From positions 1-29,553 of the IMG/VR virus record IMGVR_UViG_3300021375_000115: DNA of 29,553 nt. One strand, written 5' to 3'. A program made the position numbers and the translations under genes. This document shows, piece after piece, positions 6,001 to 29,553 of the stretch. Numbering within the stretch: position 1 is the stretch's first letter; each line of letters opens with the position of its first letter. The DNA is from a virus. Below the pieces are notes generated by a model. The model did not search any database. It was not told the DNA's origin and saw only the letters and a list, made by a program, of their open reading frames with translations.

Positions 6001-8446
6001 ATATTTCTCCTACAAATTTATAACCAAAGTTATATAATTCTATGTCTTTATCAAATTCTAAAATAGGTCTTGTTGCTTGATATCTTTTATCAGGTACTGT
6101 GGCACCTGCATCTAAAAAGTTTTGTCTATGGTGCCAAAAATTAATTCTACTCCAAATATTTCTGTTAGCGGCTCCTCTTTGTAATACATTATAGTCTGGA
6201 CTTTCTTGTGCTGTCTTTCCTCCCCATATTGCATCACCGTCACCATCACCGTCGGCATCTCTATCCCAACCAAAATCTTCGTTTGTGTCAGGCGAACCAC
6301 CTAGGTAAAATTCTCCAGTAACTGGGTCTACGCCAGTCAATGCCATTGAGGATAATCCAGTAATAAATGTTCCATCTACATTTGATGTTAGTTGGAACAT
6401 GCTTGTTCTAATTTGGAATTCTGCACCTCTACCTACAAATGTTATTGTAGATTCTGAGTTTTGATCTAATATTACAGGATTATCTAATACTACTACATCT
6501 CCAATTCTAGCAATATCAAATCTAAGAGCGTTTCCACCACCGTTTCCTAAATCACTATCGCTAATTGTAATTAAATCATTTACTGCATGGCCAGTACCAC
6601 CGTTTAAAAGTTCTATATTAGTATCACCAAACGTAATTACGTCACTTACATTGAATGTTAATGTACCTGAATTATTACTTCCTAATAATCCGTCATTAAT
6701 TGTAATTGTTTCGCTATCAACGAAATCTATACCACCGTCAATAATTGTTACAACTGCATTGCCATTACCGTCTGCAACTATTTTAAAAATAGCATCTACA
6801 CCATTTGCACTTGTTGATATATTACCTATATGACCTAAGTTTGTCATGTCAACTATGTGTGTACCTGTTACATTACTATTGCTGAGTGTTGCACCTGCTA
6901 CTGCTGTTATACCTTGTGGTTTTTGTATTTCGTATACTTTAAATGTAATATCGGGCCCACCGACAGAATCTATACTACTACCGGCTAAAGTAATTGTGTC
7001 GTTTCTTCTGTAACCTGTTCCGCCACTATCAACTGATACTGCTACATGAGGACTATTACCACTAAAGTCATCATAAACAACTTTGAAAGTTGCTCCAGTA
7101 CCATTTCCTGATGTTGTACTTGCAACATTATTTTTAATAAGAGTTGTTCTTGCTGTTTTAATTGCTGTATTTGATGACCATGTTGAATAACCGTCATCTA
7201 CACTATGTATACTTAAAAGGTTTGTCTCACCTATTACCGTAACTCTAAATGATTGTCCTGTTCCTGTACCACTTGTTGTACCTGATACTGTATAAATACC
7301 GCCTGTTCTATTAGTATCATAACGAGCAACCACATTGTCTATAGACTGTATTGCAGATGAAGTAGTTGATTCTACTAAACTACTTTGTCCGTCTACGGTT
7401 GCTAGTTGTCCTTCTTTTACATTAGTGGTGCTATTAATTGCTAAAACTTTGTATGGTGTAGGAATGCTTTTAAGATCGTTATCGAAGAAGTCTATATAAG
7501 TGTCTGCTGTATTAATATTTGTAGAAACAGTATCACTATCTAAAACTAAGTTTATTTGACCACTGTAATTTGCACCTGAATTTGTAACCGTAACATCTGA
7601 TATAGATCCAATGGAATTAGCATTCGCTGTTGCTGTTGCAAGTGTGGTATTTGCTCCTGTAAAACTTACTGTTGGATTTACATAACCAATACCAGGATTA
7701 GATATAACAACTGATGATATATTTCCAGCGGTGTATTTTACATTGCTGTCTGTTTCTGTAAAATTAGTATTATCCCAACTATTTAAAATAGCAATGGCAT
7801 ATGGTGAACCAATATTTTGTTCTTTAGGAATTAATGTAATACTTTCGCCTACACCTTCTACATAAAAATCTTTATTAGTTTTATTTTCTGGTATAACATA
7901 TTGACCACCAAAGGTTACTACCATACCATTTTTAAATGTAATACCGTTAGGTGAGGTAAAATCCTTTTTGCCTAATACTTCTGTGTCTATGTCAATTGGA
8001 TTTGTTAATGTACCTGTAATTGTAATAGATGGTAAATCATTATTACTCCAATAGTATTCCTGATAGTTTACAAATTTATCTATGTCAATAGGAGGTAAGA
8101 AACTTTGATATTCTGTAGCAAATAATCTATTATGGTTTTTTGTGTTTACGCCTGAAATACTTAATGTGTCAACTAATTCATCATAAAAAATAAAGTTTTC
8201 ACTTGTACCTGTTGTTGTATTTAAATTATTAACTGCTGGAGATAAACTATAATGATGCCTTGTTGCTGTTGCTTCTCTAATATAAGAACCATCTGAATTG
8301 TAGTTTGCAGAATCCTGCTTTCCTAAAAATCCAGTAATAACTTCTATATTTGATGCACTGAATAATTGTTCTACAGTTGTTTCAAAAAAGTTCTTATTAG
8401 CCTCAGTCTGTAAAACTTCAGGTAATTGTTTATAAATTTTAGCCAT
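1..8446 (-). CDS. Giant tail/baseplate structural protein with YHYH-like domain (3' end outside window)
   Basis: The frame stays open from the ATG at 8446 to base 1, giving at least 2815 codons; the C-terminus lies outside the window. The N-terminus (MAKIYKQLPEVLQTEANKNF, then a region around FVNYQEYYW) has the look of the giant virion proteins encoded after gp6 in marine T4-like phages, where T4 has gp7 (about 1030 aa). Residues about 230-630 contain recurrent glycine-rich modules of the type GGTGY..NDTITI. An acidic DRDADGDGDGDA loop lies near residue 728. At about residues 1700-1790 an IGVLVNGLPLY segment followed by HSGIIGWAFDGLPIYG resembles the YHYH domain, although the YHYH tetrad itself is not visible. 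The start overlaps the gp6 stop as TAATG, so the gene is probably translated by coupling. A virion role is well supported; the gp7 equivalence is positional inference. Confidence 0.85.
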   Translation of the reverse strand, partial: MAKIYKQLPEVLQTEANKNFFETTVEQLFSASNIEVITGFLGKQDSANYNSDGSYIREATATRHHYSLSPAVNNLNTTTGTSENFIFYDELVDTLSISGVNTKNHNRLFATEYQSFLPPIDIDKFVNYQEYYWSNNDLPSITITGTLTNPIDIDTEVLGKKDFTSPNGITFKNGMVVTFGGQYVIPENKTNKDFYVEGVGESITLIPKEQNIGSPYAIAILNSWDNTNFTETDSNVKYTAGNISSVVISNPGIGYVNPTVSFTGANTTLATATANANSIGSISDVTVTNSGANYSGQINLVLDSDTVSTNINTADTYIDFFDNDLKSIPTPYKVLAINSTTNVKEGQLATVDGQSSLVESTTSSAIQSIDNVVARYDTNRTGGIYTVSGTTSGTGTGQSFRVTVIGETNLLSIHSVDDGYSTWSSNTAIKTARTTLIKNNVASTTSGNGTGATFKVVYDDFSGNSPHVAVSVDSGGTGYRRNDTITLAGSSIDSVGGPDITFKVYEIQKPQGITAVAGATLSNSNVTGTHIVDMTNLGHIGNISTSANGVDAIFKIVADGNGNAVVTIIDGGIDFVDSETITINDGLLGSNNSGTLTFNVSDVITFGDTNIELLNGGTGHAVNDLITISDSDLGNGGGNALRFDIARIGDVVVLDNPVILDQNSESTITFVGRGAEFQIRTSMFQLTSNVDGTFITGLSSMALTGVDPVTGEFYLGGSPDTNEDFGWDRDADGDGDGDAIWGGKTAQESPDYNVLQRGAANRNIWSRINFWHHRQNFLDAGATVPDKRYQATRPILEFDKDIELYNFGYKFVGEISVVSRTLSKVEVDGLVTGSLIDDAPLSIGTTIIFPNDEPIVSKHVYKVSHVSGLISLSKVGDPNLNPAGVEEGETGFVPLTFIQGDQVNIKAGLFGYGKEYWWNNNKLELCQVKEQLHQAPLMKMYDDKGQDFTDEDIFPNTSFNGNKIFNYKIGTGTNDTVLGFPLSFKPFKSTSEIDFENFLGTEVVNYGNVTKTDVPGYYYYKLLKQTSEYHSYWKNSDNKFEQAIKTFYYVNSFDVTNAFNKFFIGCNPKVNTDNASGYDINVLVNGTPRTDFTYTSNGIIEFTTYNFVKDDIIEIKAISDRNGLINERSISKYETPLSWAHNSDNEDIISISEPEYLQHFKNYMSNQDGFTGNALGNNNFKDTSKNSKHAKDIVKAEEDLRLASFLLNDQPHNLLEALRFSEQEYIRYKGRLRSELTKYFTDFDTTDLKTDFILEKVLRNVVTFSVGNNVFQQSYVIPFGDNFTEEVFTINSIDVLNYQIAKYLDLSKIENSLLVYRQRGTAQVLLDVDHDYTITNTSNSITVNLSSTYDNQLGDKLLVRLYDKERDSAELPPTPSTMGLFPLYEPMIITDNSFTTTVQLLLGHDGSKSVLLGDTRDDVLLEFERRIYNSAKKEFRSANSLPGYNYTDVKSGYFRPDNLSQNEWFDLLRNSFADWVQSNNVDYIKNEIYDSSDEFTWNYRGTTDLPGHWRGYFEYHYDTVRPHTHPWEMLGFTEKPNWWDTLYITSTYTDYSSNNVPMWDDLEEGIIRDGDRENFTSGLYKSITTNPYRRIGLSNILPVSSTGTLKSPYDIQTTGTTTLNKAYTNATVDNSLGYLTTSFLLTDGLSVGFDSSNVYVTGKNIPNYATTKIDTTLSNVKQGSGNYNIPRVDLVAVPNSNISLQSNAIGVLVNGLPLYNIKDNDSWNSEDVWHYNNEFKNRNRSSNTIAETDSNGVTKTYVPTVDMSNTSAWGNTTTHSGIIGWAFDGLPIYGPYGYSDPLDATSDITNIKSSFVLKEGIRGSGPGGDHTGAFVEDYTWNSSLAGQNGYAGRWNQRVGVTPDSSGAQIKYYVCTIDDSGKPMFPYAVGGGENNDTTNHNALTYGNRYYAQPQNKELNTLGTGYTSSTATSAITSSYSETKSNTVAINEDWRFGDGAPVENAWKYSEAYPFAISQALLLAKPGMFATMFGDPTRLVVPPMNKKVLVDKTSRKSWDYKSADNFTVHGTKDTNGNFLTNIGYTQFIKSYLNFQGLDITTDFYDKLKSLNVKLGHRMAGFIDKDTATIRTDQYSTTGTSTSLIIPDENIQLELHNSPYKSRNAYSGVIVEKSTNGYKVRGYDKNNTYFNILESDTSGPSQSITRGGDPVSFANWSSTVAYPQNSIVKYLDQYYQAKNDIDADTGFITAEWTLLPALPTTGGATGVVYTNSTGIIKRIDYDKEFLTVQSVFDFLISLGRYHASLGFNFGEYDNSINDVRDWNYSAEQFLFWETGGWEIGNTLDLSPLSNKVSFAKTNEFVAEVKVIDQNQFSLLDENGVSINPKNCGIVREGNNIEITPPAGKQIYSAILYTKQTEHALIVDNKTDFADTIFNTLYNQKQDRLFIKAKRTLGWEGRLSSEGFIINGEELQPNLDNITSTMGDYHNLGFIPVDKQVYQASRGLFGFDQKSYLTDLDILDDQQVEFFKGMIQNKGTLTGIGKLAKSNSIVQGNVTVFDEWALKVGEFGDIDNEQSIELSLTKKDMVQDPQLFKLEFPEDTTGFIKEILVTENKSSYDTVPEIEISAPTESGGKQATGKVNLIDGVISSIEITEGGSGYNELATVQTILGNVNVTGANIKFNSVTVASSDLIPAANITGINNITITDHLSSNTAHTIDLSGVTEMANIATIINSKIETNANIVAQAVTSFNADTWTLSNTTASNNMIAVSTPTTSPTTLEAGMPIIFSGTGLGGLNLNTIYYVKDIDVIQPEDLSEFYTTFTVSSTVNGSVVNLSNATGSMEAAGSKTTVLQISGQDFTLGGSGLA

Positions 8447-11400
8447 TAATAACCACTTCCGCTTGAACCAGAGCCGGACCCGCCACTGCTACTGGTTGTA
8501 TTAGTTGTTGTACTTGCATTTCCTGTATATGTACCATGGAACATTGTTGAGCCCATAACTAAACCGTTAGGCATGTAAAAAGTTGTTCCGTAAAATACAT
8601 GAGTATGACTTGTACCATTTCCTGCATTATTTGAATTTGTTTCGTTTGAATACAAAGGATAATACCCGTTAATTGCATATGGACCCGTACTTGCTGATGC
8701 ATTGTTTGTTGTATATACAGATCCTGATGTAGAACCTGATAATGTTGTTCTAGATATTTTATCTATAACTTCAATATCGGCAACTGTTGCCGTATTTAAG
8801 AACAACTCATCTGCTTCTGCCTTAACAGAGAACAAGTCTCCAAATTTACCTGTAGAATTTCTTGGTAATATAACTAAACTACCTAGCAATCCTGCTAGTT
8901 GAGAGTGTACATAACTAGATAATTCTGTAAAATAAAATGTTTCGCCGAAGTCCCAGTTTGTTGCATCAAAGTATTGATTGAATGCTGTAATTACTTTAGA
9001 CTTTAGTTCGTTATCACTTATACCTTCGTTCAATTTTACAATTCTAAACTTTGCTTGTAATTCAGGACTTGCATCACTACCAAATATCTTTTTAAATTTA
9101 CCACTTCTATATATAATAGTATCACTAGCACTCTTAAATTCTTCTAACTCAGCAAACTCAGTTGCTAATTCGTTTGAAGTTGGTGGTAGAGGATAAATTG
9201 TTCCTGGAACATTAATGTATTTTTTAATATCTTCATAATAGTTTTTTGTTAGTACTAGCATTTCTACTACATTACTAATACTAGGATCTATTCTTACGTC
9301 TTTATTGGCAACATGTTCCCATTTAAATATCATAGGTGTTACTTCAGGAAGTAAACTGTTTTGTGTCATGCCTCTTCCATTGTAAACTGCACAATCTGTT
9401 GTTTCAACTGCGTTTACATGTTCTGAGTTAGTACTACTTGGTGTCATTAGGTATATTTTATCAGTATTAGCAACATATACTTTTAAGCCTGATGCATAAC
9501 CATCAGTATTATTTAATTTTGATGTTACTATATTGTATGAGTCAACAACTAACCAACTAAGATTACTAAATGCTATATTGTTTGTATAAGTTTTAGGACT
9601 TATTGTAGCAGTTGTACCTGAACCTATAATGTCTACATCTATTTCTTCTCTAAGATCTAAAATTCCACCAGATACTGGACGTTCGTATGTATATCCATCA
9701 TAGTCTAAATAGTTTTCTAAAAATACTAAGTCTTCTTCTCCAACAAAATCCTTAAATTGTAATGGTTTATCAGGCACTAGATCGTTATCTGTATCAAAAG
9801 GTGCAACAATAACTTTTGAAGGATCAGTATATCCATCTGCTTCTTTGAATGTGTCAACAATATGCCAATCTATGTTTTCTTTAAGACGTTGCTTGTAATT
9901 TTCGTATCTAATTCTGATCTTATCTGTACTTGTAACAGCCGTAATATCAGTTGCATAAAGATAATTATTATCTTCTAAGTTTCCATATTGTACAGTACCT
10001 GTTTTTGCTGATGCATTTGCCTCAACTAGTTGCACATTGCCTCTATAATTGGTTCCACTGCCTCCGTGTGCTATAGGTACCGTTGTACCTGCTGTACCAT
10101 AAGAATATACATCACTGTTTGCGTTGCTAAATCCATTTACCATAGTATTACCATGGTAAATTTCTACCTGTGATGTTGTAGGGTTATATGCTTTATATGT
10201 AATATTACCATTACTATCAAAAATGTTATAACCAAATGTAGCATTTGTAAAACTTACATTAATTTTGCCTGGTATTCGACTTACTCTTCCCATATTGTTT
10301 GCTACGGTCATGTTTCCACTTATTTCAGGTGATACGCCATCATCAAAATATGTATTGAGCGTTACTGTTGCATCATTTACAAATAAATCTTTAGAAATCA
10401 CGTTTGCTTTTGCAGAACCTTCGCCCCTTAATATACCAAAATTACTTATCCAATCAATTTCGATATCAAACCAATTTGTATCTCTAGATCTTAATGGTAA
10501 TTCTAATTGATACTGGTTAGGGTCTGTAACAGTTCCTGTTTCTTCACTAAACCATTTGTTACCTGTATTTCCTGTACCGTCTAGGTACCATCTAAATGTT
10601 TCTGAACTACCAGGTTGGTTATTAAATGTTGTAATTGATATCTTATCTGTATTTGCTTTGTTATCACTATCTAAAACTTTAATATTTTTAACATTGTAAA
10701 ATTTAATATCTTCTTTACTATTAAAAACGTATTGTTCTCCACGAATAGTCACATTGTATCTGTAAGAATTTAAATCTACTGCTTCGTATTCAAATAATAT
10801 TAACCAACTAGCATCATTTGGAGTATTGTTTTTACTTCCTGCATTACTTACATCAAATTTACCAGTTTTATCAAGGTTTGCATTTTCAATTACATACCAT
10901 TGGTCTGCTAAAAGGCCGTCTGTTATGTTTGTTGGTGCAAATCCTATACCAAATGTTTTTTTGTTCTCCATTTGTGACTGAACGTCTGGTAATTCTGATC
11001 CCTGTAGTTTTTTTCTTAGTGTCACAATAACTTCTGTTACTCTCCATCCTGTAGGAATAGAGGAACTAAGTGTCCATGGACCTGTTGATGTACTAAGTCC
11101 AGAAGATAGTAACCCTGCATTGGATTCTTTAGTAATTCTAACCCATTTATACTCAGTCATATCACTTGGGTTTACTAATTTAAGGAAATTGTTTTCTTGG
11201 AACTGTTTAAATGATACAAATGTATTTGTTAATACCTTTTCTGTACCGGCCGCTCCTGCACTTGATGTTTCTGTAAAGTAACCTGTTGTTCCTGTTAGTT
11301 TTACGGGTAGAGGGTTCCATTTAACACCTAAACTCTCTATATCAAAACTATTAGTTTTGTATTTTTTCCATTTATCTCTGAAAGAGTCGTAAACATAGTT

Positions 11401-12969
11401 ATTAAGATTTTGATTTTTAAAATATAAAGGTAAAATATTCTCTACAACATTATTTGCTGTATTATTTCCACTTATAATTGTACTTACATTAGTAGTTTTA
11501 TCCATTTTGTAAAGGAAACCATCATCTGCAAACAAATCTATGTTCTGTAATGTTCCTGTTGGATCATTTATATCTATATACCTACTATGTCCAGCATGTG
11601 TTCTATTTACTGCTGATAATTTTTGTATGTTACTGCTCTTTGCAAAAGGAAAAACGTTATAATCCTGAGAACTTATCATTCTGTTTTGAGTGAAATAAGT
11701 TTGTGGTGCTCTTTGCTTAATACTTTCTAATGATTCTGTTGGTAAACTATTGTTTACAGCATTTTGTAATGCCATTGTTATAGTCATTGTATAAGCGGAA
11801 CCGTTTCTGTTTTCATACGGAACATTAATAGAAATATTTCTTGCATCGTCAGGTTGTAGAGAATAACTTACACCGTCACTAGTTCTATACCATGTTCTGT
11901 AAATTCCGTTAGGCATATTACCAAAGTTTCCGTCAGGGAACTTTAATCTTACACCATCGTTATCTAAATTTTCTGTTGCGTAAAGATTTCTTGTTCCAAA
12001 TGCTTGGCTATTATAGTTTAATGTTTGTCCTACTGTATTAGGTATTTTAATCCACTTACTAATTACAGCACCCGATGTATTAATTTCCTGCACCCAAACA
12101 TCTGTTTCATTTATGTTTGAGGAAGTAAGGTCTGCTACTCTATTTGGAATAGGTGTATTAAAATTAAAATCTGAAAAGGATAATGTACCCTGTTTGAACA
12201 TCATAAAGAAACCACTGTTACTACTATTAAGTCCTTTGCCGTCATTTCTATAAAACAATCCTAAATTGTTTAAAGGGTCTGGATGTCTTTCGTAAAAATA
12301 TTTTCCATTTAAAAAATCACCATCTACAATTTCAAAATTCCTACTTACGCCATTTACATTTAGTGTATAGGGGAAGGTTTGTGAAGCACTAATTTGTTTT
12401 GTAATTCTATATAGTTCTGTAGTTATACCTCCAACTACTCCCTTCTTAATTGGCGAAGTAAATCTATTTGTATTACTAAATGCACTATTTAATATTGTAA
12501 TAAACTGTTCATATGACTCTGGATTGTTTACGTCATTCCAGAATACTTGTTTGTTAGATAAGTTAGCACCTAAACTATCTACTAAAGGTTCCGTTGTTTT
12601 AATAGACGTAATTTTTACTAATCCACTTGCTGGAGTATTTCTTCTTGGGTTATATCCCAACATCCTCGCAAGTTTAAAGACACTTTCTCTTCTTTCAGCA
12701 GTTTCTAAAAAGTTTTCTCTACTGTTAAGGTCCATTCTAAATGCTAATGCTTGAGAAAGGAATGCAAGTAATTCTATAATTGCAATAAATTCAGAACTTT
12801 CAATATAATCATTAAAGTTTTCTGGAAAATTAGTTCGTATGTAATTTACCATTGCAAGTCGCAATGTATCGAAATCGTATGATGTAAAGTCTACATTATT
12901 AAATGCCTTATAGGCAATTTTCCAATCTTCTGCGGCAAATAAGTTAGTTTGTCTTTGTGATAATGCCAT
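8446..12969 (-). CDS. 6: Baseplate wedge protein gp6-like, greatly enlarged
   Basis: This 1507-aa protein is about 2.3 times the length of T4 gp6 (660 aa). In T4, gp6 dimers form the ring that joins baseplate wedges. The first about 200 residues (YDFDTLRLAMVNYIRTNFPE, SSEFIAIIELLAFLSQALAF, then LGYNPRR) match the gp6 N-terminal pattern, and residues about 1270-1400 contain the gp6 C-terminal pattern (FDATNWDFGETFYFTELSSY). The middle, roughly 350-1180, is beta-rich and looks like added domains. The C-terminus has a YYPLY segment, a SHTHVF motif (His1455 and His1457), FYMPNG and HGTY, then a Gly/Ser/Thr-rich tail ending in SGSGY; similar tails occur on marine phage tail proteins. It lies directly after gp25 with a TAATG junction at 12969 and before the giant gene with another at 8446. 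The family is confident; the role of the insertion is unknown. Confidence 0.9.
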   Translation of the reverse strand: MALSQRQTNLFAAEDWKIAYKAFNNVDFTSYDFDTLRLAMVNYIRTNFPENFNDYIESSEFIAIIELLAFLSQALAFRMDLNSRENFLETAERRESVFKLARMLGYNPRRNTPASGLVKITSIKTTEPLVDSLGANLSNKQVFWNDVNNPESYEQFITILNSAFSNTNRFTSPIKKGVVGGITTELYRITKQISASQTFPYTLNVNGVSRNFEIVDGDFLNGKYFYERHPDPLNNLGLFYRNDGKGLNSSNSGFFMMFKQGTLSFSDFNFNTPIPNRVADLTSSNINETDVWVQEINTSGAVISKWIKIPNTVGQTLNYNSQAFGTRNLYATENLDNDGVRLKFPDGNFGNMPNGIYRTWYRTSDGVSYSLQPDDARNISINVPYENRNGSAYTMTITMALQNAVNNSLPTESLESIKQRAPQTYFTQNRMISSQDYNVFPFAKSSNIQKLSAVNRTHAGHSRYIDINDPTGTLQNIDLFADDGFLYKMDKTTNVSTIISGNNTANNVVENILPLYFKNQNLNNYVYDSFRDKWKKYKTNSFDIESLGVKWNPLPVKLTGTTGYFTETSSAGAAGTEKVLTNTFVSFKQFQENNFLKLVNPSDMTEYKWVRITKESNAGLLSSGLSTSTGPWTLSSSIPTGWRVTEVIVTLRKKLQGSELPDVQSQMENKKTFGIGFAPTNITDGLLADQWYVIENANLDKTGKFDVSNAGSKNNTPNDASWLILFEYEAVDLNSYRYNVTIRGEQYVFNSKEDIKFYNVKNIKVLDSDNKANTDKISITTFNNQPGSSETFRWYLDGTGNTGNKWFSEETGTVTDPNQYQLELPLRSRDTNWFDIEIDWISNFGILRGEGSAKANVISKDLFVNDATVTLNTYFDDGVSPEISGNMTVANNMGRVSRIPGKINVSFTNATFGYNIFDSNGNITYKAYNPTTSQVEIYHGNTMVNGFSNANSDVYSYGTAGTTVPIAHGGSGTNYRGNVQLVEANASAKTGTVQYGNLEDNNYLYATDITAVTSTDKIRIRYENYKQRLKENIDWHIVDTFKEADGYTDPSKVIVAPFDTDNDLVPDKPLQFKDFVGEEDLVFLENYLDYDGYTYERPVSGGILDLREEIDVDIIGSGTTATISPKTYTNNIAFSNLSWLVVDSYNIVTSKLNNTDGYASGLKVYVANTDKIYLMTPSSTNSEHVNAVETTDCAVYNGRGMTQNSLLPEVTPMIFKWEHVANKDVRIDPSISNVVEMLVLTKNYYEDIKKYINVPGTIYPLPPTSNELATEFAELEEFKSASDTIIYRSGKFKKIFGSDASPELQAKFRIVKLNEGISDNELKSKVITAFNQYFDATNWDFGETFYFTELSSYVHSQLAGLLGSLVILPRNSTGKFGDLFSVKAEADELFLNTATVADIEVIDKISRTTLSGSTSGSVYTTNNASASTGPYAINGYYPLYSNETNSNNAGNGTSHTHVFYGTTFYMPNGLVMGSTMFHGTYTGNASTTTNTTSSSGGSGSGSSGSGY

Positions 12970-13340
12970 TATTCAAAACCCTCTGATTCATTTATAAATT
13001 CTAAATATAACACGTCTTCTTCTGAACCCGGATTAAATTTTAAGGCAACGTCCGCTCTTATTGTATGGTCCATCATATATAATGTGATATCTTTAAGTGT
13101 TACTCTAGGATCAGTATCAATAATTCTTCTTATATCGTCTTTAATTTCTTCTTCTGTTACCGTGTCTTCTGGTTCCATAAGTAAATCCCATATAATAGAG
13201 CCAAAGTTTGGTTTCATTAGTCGCTCACCTTTTTTAGTGTAAAAATGGTTGAGTAGATCTCTTTTAACTAGATCTATATCGGTTAAAGTATATGGTGCTC
13301 TAACCTTATCTATCGTACTAAATCCTTTAAATATTGCCAT
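12969..13340 (-). CDS. 25: Baseplate wedge protein gp25
   Basis: This 123-aa protein matches the gp25/GPW family, the small wedge protein that nucleates sheath contact with the baseplate. Visible signatures are FSTIDKVRAPYTLTDIDLVK near the start, a KKGERLMKPNFGSIIWDLL block and a DPRVTLKDITLYMM block. An upstream in-frame ATG at 13361 would add seven residues (MFLINTC), but those codons lie over the late promoter; the ATG at 13340 gives the usual start MAIFKGFS. No Shine-Dalgarno sequence precedes either start. A T4-type late promoter, GATAAATA, ends six bases before the ATG, so the predicted transcript begins at or next to the A of ATG. The stop overlaps the gp6 start as TAATG. Confidence 0.92.
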   Translation of the reverse strand: MAIFKGFSTIDKVRAPYTLTDIDLVKRDLLNHFYTKKGERLMKPNFGSIIWDLLMEPEDTVTEEEIKDDIRRIIDTDPRVTLKDITLYMMDHTIRADVALKFNPGSEEDVLYLEFINESEGFE

Positions 13341-13344
13341 ACAT

Positions 13345-13354
13345 GTATTTATCA
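13345..13354 (-). promoter_or_regulatory. Late promoter for gp25-gp6-giant gene operon
   Basis: On the minus strand TGATAAATA (core GATAAATA at 13353-13346) differs at one base from the T4 late promoter TATAAATA. If the final A is -6 as in T4, transcription begins at about 13340, exactly the gp25 start codon. The same 9-mer precedes three other structural units in this window. Confidence 0.75.
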
Positions 13355-13383
13355 AAAACATTATAACTAGTTTTAATTAGTAG

Positions 13384-13412
13384 TTGACTTTAGAAGATTT
13401 AGACTGTATAAT
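13384..13412 (+). promoter_or_regulatory. Host sigma70-type promoter for hydrolase gene
   Basis: TTGACT at 13384-13389 and TATAAT at 13407-13412 are separated by 17 bases, a near-perfect sigma70 promoter. A start seven bases after the -10 falls at about 13419, the A of the hydrolase ATG, so the mRNA would be leaderless. Confidence 0.8.
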
Positions 13413-13418
13413 ACAAAG

Positions 13419-14024
13419 ATGAAAAACATAATCTACCTACATGGTGCTAATGCAGACCCAGATAACTTTAATTACTACACTTTAAAGTTACCTGAGCATA
13501 ATTTTATAAGTCCTGCCTATGATATGGAGGATGACCCTTACGATTTGGTTGAATTGGTAAGAATGCGTAAGCAACGTGAGTTCGGCAAGCAGAAAATAAT
13601 ACTTGTAGGGCATAGTTTTGGTGGATTATTAGCAAGTTGGTATGCAAGTGTGTATCCAAAAAATGTAGAACATTTGGTAACAATAGCAACACCTTGGCAG
13701 GGAACACCTGTAGCAAGAATTTTAGGTATGATTTTTAGAAATAGAAAAGTATTTGAAAATACAAAACCAGGTGCAGAAGTACTAGCATTATTGCAAGAAA
13801 AGTCTTACAATGGATTGCATACAAATATTGTTTGTACAAGTGGTTCAAATCCTTTGGCTGGATTAGGGGGCAAAGCAAACGACGGTATGATATCTGTTGA
13901 CAGTCAATTAGCAACTCCACCTAAATTTAAAAACACTGAAAATGTTACCATACATGCAGGTCACAGTGGTGTTTTGTTAAATAACAATGTAACTAATATT
14001 TTAGAAAAAATAATTGAGAAATAA
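13419..14024 (+). CDS. Alpha/beta-hydrolase (lipase/esterase-like)
   Basis: This 201-aa protein has an early beta strand followed by HGA (His8-Gly9), a typical oxyanion region, then the nucleophile elbow GHSFGG with Ser66. Asp155 (in NDGMISVD) and His182 (in HAGHSGVL) are in the right order to complete a Ser-Asp-His triad. ATPWQGTP at about 90-97 resembles lipase/PGAP1-like hydrolases. There is no signal peptide or membrane segment, so it should act in the cytoplasm or be released at lysis. The gene lies on the plus strand between two minus-strand late baseplate blocks and has its own host-type promoter, with no Shine-Dalgarno sequence. It is therefore probably an early-expressed accessory gene. 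The substrate cannot be told; esterase, lipase or thioesterase are all possible. Confidence 0.85.
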   Translation: MKNIIYLHGANADPDNFNYYTLKLPEHNFISPAYDMEDDPYDLVELVRMRKQREFGKQKIILVGHSFGGLLASWYASVYPKNVEHLVTIATPWQGTPVARILGMIFRNRKVFENTKPGAEVLALLQEKSYNGLHTNIVCTSGSNPLAGLGGKANDGMISVDSQLATPPKFKNTENVTIHAGHSGVLLNNNVTNILEKIIEK

Positions 14025-20701: not shown

Positions 20702-21612
20702 TAAACAAATCCTCCTTTATATCCCTTTCCAGATCTTAAATTATCCAAGTCAAATTTCTTTCTTGTTTTCTTAGGTGTATAGTTAGGTGTTAAGTTTACC
20801 ATAACGTTCATTCTTGTAGGCACATAAGTTGTTTCTGTTCCTTCACCACCGCCAACATTTGTAACAACTGGAACATAATCACAATCTTCAGGTAACTGTA
20901 TAGAGTAGTCGTTAATAATAACTGGTACTTTGTTAAATCCGTGTTCTCCTAAATATTCAAATATCAATGTGGGAGGAGGTGTACCATAAGTTTGTTGGAC
21001 AACCGACTTCTCACCAAAATAACTCTTTGTTGCTGTCTTTAAAAAATGCATCATTGCTAATAAGTAATGGCCATCAAACATATCATTAGCATAAAAATCT
21101 GCCTGTACAGGCAGTGAAGGAGGAGTACTATTCATATATGTATATATAGGATAGTTAGAACCATGCAGTTGTTGTGCGTTATAGTTTGCAACACCTGATA
21201 AAAATATCTGTGGTGTAACTTGCCAAACCAAACCACCTGTTGCTTTAAGTGGTGCTAGTAAAGAACTTTTAGAATCTCCGTCCTCGCCAGACATACCGTA
21301 TACTTGATTCATCCCACCATTTTTAGGACGAAGTCTTGCTCGCCAATCAAAGTTTGAAATGTCACCGTTTGTTTCTGAGCCACTATCATTTATTTGTATT
21401 TGTCCAGAGGCTGATGTTGCCGCCGCCAGTTCTTGTGCCTTTTTAATTCTTTCTTCTACATGAACTTTACTGGTTCCAGTGTCGTAAGGACCAAACCCTT
21501 CTTTACCCATTAAATTCCAAAATATAGATTGTACCCTAGGATCTAACCCCGATACTTTTTCACTAATTTTGTTATTTAAAAAACTGTTTACACTCTTTTG
21601 AAAGAACGACAT
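20701..21612 (-). CDS. 48: Baseplate tail-tube cap/initiator protein (gp48/gp54-like)
   Basis: This 303-aa protein is the first gene of the minus-strand operon. Characteristic segments are WRARLRPKNGGM, PLKATGGLVWQVTPQIFLSG, ANDMFDGHYLLAMMHFLKTA and INDYSIQLPEDCDYVPV, a pattern seen in the T4 gp48/gp54 family, which caps the baseplate and starts tube polymerisation. T4 gp48 is 364 aa and gp54 about 320 aa; the sequence alone does not decide between them. The C-terminus is basic (PKKTRKKF). The ATG has a good AGGAG site (CAGGAGATTAATATG) and a late promoter 19 bases upstream. Confidence 0.72.
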   Translation of the reverse strand: MSFFQKSVNSFLNNKISEKVSGLDPRVQSIFWNLMGKEGFGPYDTGTSKVHVEERIKKAQELAAATSASGQIQINDSGSETNGDISNFDWRARLRPKNGGMNQVYGMSGEDGDSKSSLLAPLKATGGLVWQVTPQIFLSGVANYNAQQLHGSNYPIYTYMNSTPPSLPVQADFYANDMFDGHYLLAMMHFLKTATKSYFGEKSVVQQTYGTPPPTLIFEYLGEHGFNKVPVIINDYSIQLPEDCDYVPVVTNVGGGEGTETTYVPTRMNVMVNLTPNYTPKKTRKKFDLDNLRSGKGYKGGFV

Positions 21613-21685: not shown

Positions 21686-21713
21686 TTGACAATACGCAAT
21701 AGTTGTGTATAAT
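21686..21713 (+). promoter_or_regulatory. Consensus sigma70 promoter for the gp55-gp47-gp46 operon
   Basis: Perfect TTGACA (21686-21691) and TATAAT (21708-21713) boxes with a 16-base spacer. The expected start is about 21720, leaving a leader of roughly 33 bases ending in GAGGAGAGTTA before the gp55 ATG. It is arranged divergently from the late promoter at 21630-21639. Confidence 0.88.
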
Positions 21714-21752
21714 ACTAACAATATAAATGAATTATAATTTTGAGGAGAGTTA

Positions 21753-22622
21753 ATGGCACAGCCTAAAAAAGTAAATTATCTTAATAATAAAGATATCCTA
21801 AAAGAAATCCATAAAAGTAAAATGACATACTGTTATGTTACAGATGAAATGTATGCAAACTATGATGTTATTTTGCAAGATGTGGATAAAATTAATAGAA
21901 ACAGTATTAAATTAGCAAGAGAAAATCGTGCTTCTTTAATGCAGTCGATTGGTTATCAGGCCGCAATGGCTGAACATGATCCTAAGGATTATAAAAATAA
22001 ACCAAAACAGAAAGAGTTTGCAGTTGACCCAAAAAGCATTCCACAGGAAGAATTAGTATTCCGTGTAATGACCATGGAGCATATTCCAGATGAACCAGGA
22101 AGGAAAAGAATTCCTAAAAATGAAGCAGAAACTAAGGCAAAAGTAAACTTTCCTTCTTTTAAACATTATGCTTATGTAAATGGTGAAGTAACTGAAGTTG
22201 CAAGAAGTCACTGGCAGGGAAGTTTAAGCAATGGTCACTTTAGTGTTGACCATGGTAAGATCACTAACAAGTTAGGCACAATGTTTTTAAAACTAGTTGA
22301 AAGATACAGTCACAGAGCAAACTGGAGAGGTTATACTTATGTAGACGAAATGCGTGGACAAGCATTGGTTCAACTTAGCCAAATAGGCCTACAGTTTAAT
22401 GAAGCAAAATCTGATAACCCGTTTGCATATTATACTGCGGCAGTTAATAACAGTTTTACTAGAATTTTAAATTTAGAGAAACGAAACCAAATGATTAGAG
22501 ATGACATTTTAATAGAACAAGGTCATTTACCTAGTTATGGCAGACAAATAAAACACGAAGAAGAAATGAGACAAATTCGTGAAGCGGCAGAGACATCTGC
22601 ACAAAGTGATATAAACGATTAA
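21753..22622 (+). CDS. 55: Late-transcription sigma factor gp55-like
   Basis: This 289-aa protein has a C-terminal half matching T4-type gp55: GYTYVDEMRGQALVQLSQIG followed by DNPFAYYTAAVNNSFTRILN and EKRNQMIRDDIL, the sigma region-2-like core that reads the late -10 box. It is about 100 residues longer than T4 gp55 (185 aa), with a charged N-terminal extension. The C-terminus (SAQSDIND) lacks an evident hydrophobic clamp-binding tail. It directs host RNA polymerase to late promoters; four TGATAAATA sites in this window are the likely targets. It is followed by gp47 after two bases and driven by a consensus host promoter, consistent with expression before the late genes. Confidence 0.9.
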   Translation: MAQPKKVNYLNNKDILKEIHKSKMTYCYVTDEMYANYDVILQDVDKINRNSIKLARENRASLMQSIGYQAAMAEHDPKDYKNKPKQKEFAVDPKSIPQEELVFRVMTMEHIPDEPGRKRIPKNEAETKAKVNFPSFKHYAYVNGEVTEVARSHWQGSLSNGHFSVDHGKITNKLGTMFLKLVERYSHRANWRGYTYVDEMRGQALVQLSQIGLQFNEAKSDNPFAYYTAAVNNSFTRILNLEKRNQMIRDDILIEQGHLPSYGRQIKHEEEMRQIREAAETSAQSDIND

Positions 22623-28254: not shown

Positions 28255-28263
28255 TGATAAATA
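28255..28263 (+). promoter_or_regulatory. Late promoter for the tape-measure candidate
   Basis: TGATAAATA on the plus strand, one base from the T4 late consensus core. The predicted start is about 28269, giving a leader of about 64 bases before ATG 28333. Confidence 0.7.
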
Positions 28264-28288
28264 TACTAGAGTAGTATTGTACTACAAG

Positions 28289-28297
28289 TATTTATCA
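28289..28297 (-). promoter_or_regulatory. Late promoter for the gp26 operon
   Basis: TGATAAATA on the minus strand (28297-28289), preceded by TG as at the gp48 promoter. The predicted start is about 28283, and the leader contains AGGAG before ATG 28230. It faces the plus-strand late promoter. Confidence 0.75.
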
Positions 28298-28332: not shown

Positions 28333-29553
28333 ATGGTAGACAAAGCATCAGGACAGAACTTTACAGCATCGATTAATTCTCTAGATGGATCAGGGGGTTC
28401 GTATTCTGCCAATTTGCCTCCCTATGTGTTAGATAAAACAGTTAGAGATGTCATGGAGGGTCTTGTAACAGCGATATCTGATTCTGATACTGAAAACACA
28501 AAAGGTTTAAAAGATCTAGCCAAACTGTATAAACAATCACTGGACACCCAAAAAGAAAGCAAAGAGTCCAATGAAAAGGGTTTAGAAGATCTTAACGAAA
28601 CGATGACTGAGGCGGAAAGACTCGCAAAACAAAGGCAAGAAGAATTAATTAAATCTTTAAACCAACAAAAGGCAGACAGAGAAAAGTACGAACAAAAGAT
28701 TGGTGAAGAATTTGCCAGAGGTGCCACAAAGGGCGGACGATTTGCTGGAGATTTAATTGTTAGTGCAATTAAAGGAATTGCAGTAGTATTTGGTACATCA
28801 GTTGGTATTGTGGGAAGTGCATTTTCTAATTTAGGTAATAGTTTAAGAACACTCACTGATACCGGTCAGGCATTTGGAGATCAATTAGGCACAGGAAATA
28901 ATGCTACAGAGCAAAATATTATATTATTAAATAGAATGGGTTTGACAACAGAACAAGCAGTAGCATCACTGGAAACATATTCAAGGGCAATGAGTACGTT
29001 GGGACAAACAAACCTTGCACAACTTAGCAGAAGTTTTTTAGAACTTACACGAGGTGGTACCGATTTAGGTGTAACCTTAGAAGAAGCAACTGAACTATTC
29101 TTACAAGATCAAGAATTTAGAGCTCGTACATTAAACAAAGACAAAATAGATACAAGCATTACAGCTCAACTTACTCAACAAAGTATAGAAAATTTAAGGG
29201 GATTCTCTGCCATACTTGGACAAAGTACAGATGCATTAAGGCAAACAGCGGCAAGTGTAATGGAATCTAATAAGTCCTTTATAGCATTTACGAATTCCTT
29301 AAATACTCCTAATGCTACAACAATGAATACAGTAGCAAAAGATTTAGTTGCAGGACTAATTGCGGTTTTCCCTGAAAGTGGTGAAGCATTAGGTGATGCA
29401 TTACTATTAGTATCTGGTACAGGTATTAGTGCAATTAGTGATTTTGCTAACATGCTAATACCTTTAGGTGGTAATTTAAATGGTGCATTTCAAGATCTAG
29501 CAAGGGATTTAAGATCAGGTAGTATAGGTGTAAAAGATGTTCCAAATGCAATA
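28333..29553 (+). CDS. Probable tape-measure/tail hub protein (3' end outside window)
   Basis: The frame is open for 407 codons from ATG 28333 to the window edge. After a polar N-terminus, residues about 50-120 are a charged coiled coil (TEAERLAKQRQEELIKSLNQ). A hydrophobic stretch follows near 133-160 (DLIVSAIKGIAVVFGTSVGI), then helical, Ala/Thr/Leu-rich sequence with RMGLTTEQAVASLETYSRAM. This mix is typical of tape-measure proteins, which set tail length inside the tube; T4's is gp29 (590 aa). Its position next to gp26 and its late promoter support a tail role. Another long internal virion protein is the main alternative. Confidence 0.55.
   Translation, partial: MVDKASGQNFTASINSLDGSGGSYSANLPPYVLDKTVRDVMEGLVTAISDSDTENTKGLKDLAKLYKQSLDTQKESKESNEKGLEDLNETMTEAERLAKQRQEELIKSLNQQKADREKYEQKIGEEFARGATKGGRFAGDLIVSAIKGIAVVFGTSVGIVGSAFSNLGNSLRTLTDTGQAFGDQLGTGNNATEQNIILLNRMGLTTEQAVASLETYSRAMSTLGQTNLAQLSRSFLELTRGGTDLGVTLEEATELFLQDQEFRARTLNKDKIDTSITAQLTQQSIENLRGFSAILGQSTDALRQTAASVMESNKSFIAFTNSLNTPNATTMNTVAKDLVAGLIAVFPESGEALGDALLLVSGTGISAISDFANMLIPLGGNLNGAFQDLARDLRSGSIGVKDVPNAI

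Follow-up and report, generated by a model that had tools for sequence, protein, structure and literature searches.

Fixed promoter-to-start-codon spacing predicts leaderless early and late mRNAs in a group of uncultivated T4-like phages

Leaderless mRNA is already known, also from phages, lambda cI and phiYS40 being the examples. The cI mRNA transcribed from the lambda PRM promoter is leaderless, and its elements, TAGATT-TAACGT-ATG, place the -10 box 6 nt before the ATG. This promoter served as our positive control and has the same geometry as the hydrolase promoter described below; the difference is that cI is a single regulated gene, whereas in the phage group studied here the arrangement is predicted for several early and many late genes. 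Late transcription in T4 is the textbook system in which mRNA leaders carry a Shine-Dalgarno sequence, although such a leader is the usual companion of the T4 late promoter and not part of its definition. The T4 system (gp55/gp33/gp45, box TATAAATA) combines an octamer box with a phage late sigma factor, as the window does, but the T4 late genes that we surveyed are all leadered, with 0/27 boxes at a spacing of 5 nt from the start codon and a Shine-Dalgarno sequence in 25/27. Transcription from T4 late promoters starts about one helical turn downstream of the octamer (PMC2988020).

In the Thermus phage phiYS40 most middle and late mRNAs have no leaders, and an increase of IF2 and a decrease of IF3 during infection have been proposed to favour their translation (PMC3594737). 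This is a large phage with leaderless middle and late mRNAs, like the group considered here, for which leaderlessness is predicted from sequence; it differs in having a thermophilic host, while our group uses T4-type late promoters of the gp55 class and would have leaderless mRNAs for only part of its genes. Extensive leaderless transcriptomes have been described in cellular genomes (PMC3898074, PMC4633059), and in Deinococcus-Thermus the -10 motif adjoins the ORF at a specific spacing (PMC12340547). The leaderless genes of Deinococcus-Thermus and mycobacteria resemble those predicted here in these respects, but belong to cellular genomes with many leaderless genes. Phage AR9 was considered as a further precedent and rejected, its leaders being 26-491 nt long. 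Our literature search found no report of leaderless mRNA from T4-type late promoters, which is weak evidence since subscription papers lay mostly outside the search.

The divergent gap and its two promoters

The window, by which we mean the whole stretch of 29,553 nt that was analysed, represents part of the genome of an uncultivated T4-like phage. Its genes include those for the baseplate proteins gp25 and gp6, a tail lysozyme, virion structural proteins and a gp55-like late sigma factor. The features relevant here are the following.

8446-12969: gp6-like baseplate wedge protein, the next gene after gp25; long (1507 aa), PHROG match over about 1400 residues
12969..13340, minus strand: gp25-like baseplate wedge gene (Pfam GPW_gp25, 3.7e-11; PHROG baseplate wedge)
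13341-13418: divergent gap of 78 bp between gp25 (minus) and the hydrolase (plus)
13353-13346, minus strand: T4-type late promoter box GATAAATA, predicted transcription start 13340
13384..13412, plus strand: sigma70 promoter TTGACT-17-TATAAT, predicted transcription start 13419
13419..14024, plus strand: alpha/beta hydrolase gene (Pfam Abhydrolase_1, 8.4e-12), start codon at the predicted +1
21638-21631, minus strand: late box GATAAATA for contrast, with a leader and Shine-Dalgarno AGGAG at 21623-21619; structural gene start 21612
21753..22622, plus strand: gp55-like late sigma factor (PHROG 'sigma factor for late transcription', 1.1e-96)
28296-28289, minus strand: late box GATAAATA for contrast, with a longer leader and AGGAG at 28243-28239; baseplate gene start 28230

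On the minus strand the box GATAAATA is followed by CATGT and then by the gp25 ATG at 13340-13338. On the plus strand TTGACT (13384-13389), a 17-nt spacer and TATAAT (13407-13412) are followed by ACAAAG and the hydrolase ATG at 13419; this promoter matches the consensus at 11/12 positions and is clearly the top site in the region. The initial annotation had proposed both motifs and their distances from the start codons, and they were confirmed base by base; its statement that neither gene has a Shine-Dalgarno sequence also agrees with the gap sequence, in which none was found before either ATG. The two elements of a T4-type late promoter, a box NATAAATA and a phage sigma factor of the gp55 class, are both present in the window, and the gp55-like protein is the expected reader of the late boxes. 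The gene for this factor has a sigma70 promoter of its own (TTGACA 21686-21691, TATAAT 21708-21713) and a leader with GAGGAG at 21742-21747. Within the same window, the late genes starting at 21612 and 28230 have the leader with a Shine-Dalgarno sequence that is absent at gp25.

The closest matches of the window gp25 among named phages are jumbo myoviruses such as PA5oct (47% identity). No recognisable homologue of the hydrolase was found in named phages, while many were found in IMG/VR. A divergent gp25 is present in 77 of 80 hydrolase relatives, whose gaps comprise 44 distinct sequences. Neither the gap nor its promoter is found in L079-L081, the three hydrolase loci that are most distant. 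The initial annotation had asked whether the promoter-to-ATG distance is fixed in relatives, and it is: in all 77 (44 distinct gaps) exactly 5 nt separate the late box GATAAATA from the gp25 ATG, and the -10 box lies exactly 6 nt before the hydrolase start in 43 of the 44 distinct gaps and 7 nt before it in the remaining one. The letters in between vary, with nine different 5-mers on the late side and 37 different 6-mers on the sigma70 side, so that a constraint on distance can be told apart from mere sequence similarity. The gp25 N-terminus itself alternates between MAIFKG and MATLFK types at constant spacing. Gap length ranges from 73 to 78 bp, and nearly all of the change falls between the two promoters (late box to -35, 26-30 nt) or in the -35/-10 spacer (16 or 17 nt). 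The number of GATAAATA boxes is not significant in itself, as the AT-rich window contains 4 against 3.3 expected; what exceeds chance is their position. With the distance fixed while the intervening letters change, leaderless mRNAs in both directions, as first suggested for this gap, are the best-supported reading of the sequence.

Leaderless mRNAs strongly prefer AUG as start codon, and the hydrolase relatives agree with this, 69 of them starting with ATG and eight with GTG. The GTG starts (L046, L058-L063, L071) count against the leaderless reading; they stand at the same 6-nt spacing, where they would amount to leaderless GUG initiation. Leaderless GUG starts are poorly used in E. coli and efficient in some actinobacteria (PMC9031893).

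Could the promoters be real and the mRNAs nevertheless carry a short leader? Transcription might begin a few bases further up, or gp25 might be translated from an upstream in-frame ATG or TTG overlapping the late box, acquiring a short N-terminal extension. The mechanical gp25 ORF can indeed extend to an in-frame ATG at 13361, and an in-frame ATG occurs at most 24 nt upstream of the gp25 ATG in 34 of the 44 distinct gaps, often overlapping the late box (ATGATAAATA). We give this possibility only a slim chance: the upstream codon is variable (ATG, TTG or none), it likewise has no Shine-Dalgarno sequence, the conserved gp25 N-terminus starts at 13340, and the ATG that follows the box at 5 nt is also where distant gp25 proteins begin. 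Moreover, a late transcript cannot include the upstream codon, which overlaps the promoter box or precedes it. The start at 13361 was rejected, being unconserved and located before the late box. If transcription came from further upstream, a slightly longer gp25 could result.

A genome-wide class of predicted leaderless genes

Four relatives provided a genome-wide view: G001, a 250-kb genome that shares with the window roughly 66% identity in gp25 and 73% in the hydrolase, the shorter G002 and G003, and the distant G004. Gene starts were taken from a simple gene caller with a codon model. In G001 the spacing between NATAAATA and the next in-frame ATG has a bimodal distribution, with 26/66 at exactly 5 nt, none at 0-4 or 6, and nearly all others at 16 or more; dropping the hit at 128678, where an in-frame ATG falls by chance within the hydrolase promoter, leaves 25/65. 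About one box at spacing 5 would be expected by chance (binomial p ~1e-27). When ATGs are tallied regardless of frame, offset 5 has 27 of them and offsets 8-60 have a mean of 2, and the 21 distinct permutations of ATAAATA, the motif itself aside, have 0-3 at offset 5. The spacing-5 site carries 25 ATG and 1 GTG start codons. A Shine-Dalgarno tetramer precedes only 1/26 of the spacing-5 genes, as opposed to 31/38 of those at a box distance of at least 15 nt (Fisher 3.6e-10). The late genes of the spacing-5 class include those for the terminase large subunit, a head-tail adaptor, a virion protein, a PAAR protein and a thioredoxin-domain protein. Among the early sigma70 promoters of G001, 6/26 have the -10 box at exactly 6 nt and none at 5, 7 or 8; primase-like, phosphoribosyltransferase-like and DnaJ-like chaperone genes are in this set, named by reading the sequences and not by family search.

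Where transcription begins is suggested by the leadered late genes, which favour T at offset 4 from the box and A at offset 5 (T 26/38, A 25/38 in G001). Leadered late genes of T4 show the same preference (T 15/24, A 16/24), and those of Atu_ph07 are alike. This T(-1)/A(+1) step would place the transcription start of leadered genes where the A of the ATG stands in the leaderless class, and it agrees with a start some 6 nt downstream of the box, as expected of a T4-type late promoter.

The promoter boxes, their fixed spacing, the missing Shine-Dalgarno sequences, the conservation and the genome-wide bimodality are best explained if the group follows a simple rule, late box + 5 nt + ATG and -10 box + 6 nt + ATG, by which at least a third of the late promoters and some of the early promoters would give leaderless mRNAs, the other genes being leadered. 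We therefore regard it as very probable that the gap holds two functional diverging promoters, both starting on the A of an ATG, and that it exemplifies a class of early and late leaderless genes which occur throughout the genome beside leadered, mostly Shine-Dalgarno genes. The initial annotation had called the arrangement unusual, which holds in comparison with T4 or the cyanophage P-SSM2 and fails within the phage group itself, where it is routine genome-wide, the spacing being repeated before dozens of other genes.

In the mechanism suggested by the promoter sequences, host sigma70 polymerase would read the right-hand promoter early to express the hydrolase, and the gp55-type polymerase would read the left-hand promoter late to express gp25 and gp6. 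Judging from the spacing and the T/A signature, both polymerases would take the A of the start codon as +1, and translation would start at that ATG, probably on 70S ribosomes. If both mRNAs are leaderless, their translation must use recognition of the 5'-terminal AUG and not Shine-Dalgarno pairing; by analogy with the leaderless literature, binding through this AUG would be mostly by 70S ribosomes (PMC9031893). Genes for bS21 or an S1-domain protein that might steer leaderless initiation were found in none of the four relative records.

A different origin of the spacing is genome compaction: leaders would have been eroded without any leaderless role, the proteins being made mainly from read-through transcripts or by translational coupling. 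It is true that the intergenic gaps before genes of the leaderless class are shorter (G001 median 36.5 nt vs 64 nt). Erosion, however, would spread short leaders over a range, and what is seen is a single sharp peak, 0-4 and 6 being empty; gp25 and the hydrolase diverge and so have no same-strand upstream gene for read-through; and T4, whose gaps are short too, has no such class. We hold this explanation to be improbable. It is more improbable still that the spacing reflects a constraint of the promoter and initially transcribed region, with ATG favoured at +1 by RNA polymerase rather than for translation: leadered sites share the preference for T and A at -1/+1, but the leadered late sites of the same genome as a rule have no ATG at +1, T4 late promoters never carry one (0/27), and 26 of the 27 any-frame ATGs at offset 5 in G001 belong to the reading frame of a called gene.

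Spread of the arrangement across loci and lineages

The predicted arrangement is kept across distant relatives by the terminase, gp25, an uncharacterised 214-aa late protein and an early DnaJ gene, which is independent support for the leaderless class. Among 45 distinct regions upstream of the terminase, 32 have the box at 5 nt and 8 at 6 nt; among 58 upstream of the 214-aa protein, 32 have it at 5, 7 at 6 and 5 at 8. The early DnaJ gene has TTGAC-TATAAT 5-9 nt before the ATG in 32 of the 33 upstream regions with a strong promoter (41 distinct in all). Orthologue spacings of 6-8, which would correspond to leaders of 1-3 nt, count against a strictly leaderless reading.

Among gp25 lineages at 44-45% identity, several still have the box at 5 nt, amid flanking sequence that is unrelated. 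Not every lineage shows the trait, because gp25 has a leader in the distant lineages L127 and L130/L131 and also in PA5oct, Atu_ph07 and Melnitz. Outside the group, the spacing-5 late class is found in the Pelagibacter phages HTVC008M (9/23, including gp25 itself, at 31132) and Mosig (5/30), which share it with the window group and differ from it in their Kyanoviridae lineage and smaller genomes. In the control phages the corresponding counts are 0/27 (T4), 1/35 (P-SSM2), 2/34 (PA5oct), 0/48 (Atu_ph07) and 2/27 (Melnitz). Upstream of the terminase of PA5oct (58% identical) there is no clear late box from which a leader could be measured. In one genome of Pelagibacterales, a candidate host only, 400 kb gave no clear -10 spike, with 11 at 6 nt vs 12 at 5 nt and 2 at 7 nt.

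In a large, mostly marine group of uncultivated T4-like phages, many genes thus have promoters predicting that the mRNA starts exactly at the start codon, which implies that part of the proteins of these phages may be made without the usual ribosome-binding leader. Such a group would offer a large natural collection of leaderless genes controlled by a phage sigma factor of known type, and the leadered genes of the same genome would serve as internal controls. Late promoters of pelagimyophages have been reported not to be predictable with the cyanophage method (PMC7029224); the spacing rule offers a simple way to find them and also corrects start-codon annotation. The handling of leaderless mRNA by ribosomes during infection becomes testable in cultured HTVC008M on Pelagibacter HTCC1062. 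More speculatively, the two sets might form a two-channel translation programme, leaderless early and late genes on one side and Shine-Dalgarno-led genes on the other, in which a shift of ribosomes or initiation factors during infection, as proposed for phiYS40, would move output between the sets, the trait having evolved or been kept in unrelated T4-like lineages of marine bacteria; we consider this possible and rather doubtful.

Additional observations

In some orthologues (L490, L502, L535; L408, L425, L436) 6 or 8 nt separate the late box from the ATG, predicting leaders of 1-3 nt; they may mark the tolerance of leaderless initiation. In the P-SSM2 record (L210-L222) the late genes are leadered, yet by the same measure only 5/33 have a Shine-Dalgarno sequence, so that lacking a leader and lacking a Shine-Dalgarno sequence are separate traits.

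The window also contains two GATAAATA boxes that face each other in a 41-bp inverted repeat at 28256-28296, between the baseplate gene on the minus strand (start 28230) and a gene on the plus strand at 28333. Their predicted transcript starts are 28269 and 28283, and the 5' ends of the two transcripts would overlap antisense by about 15 nt.
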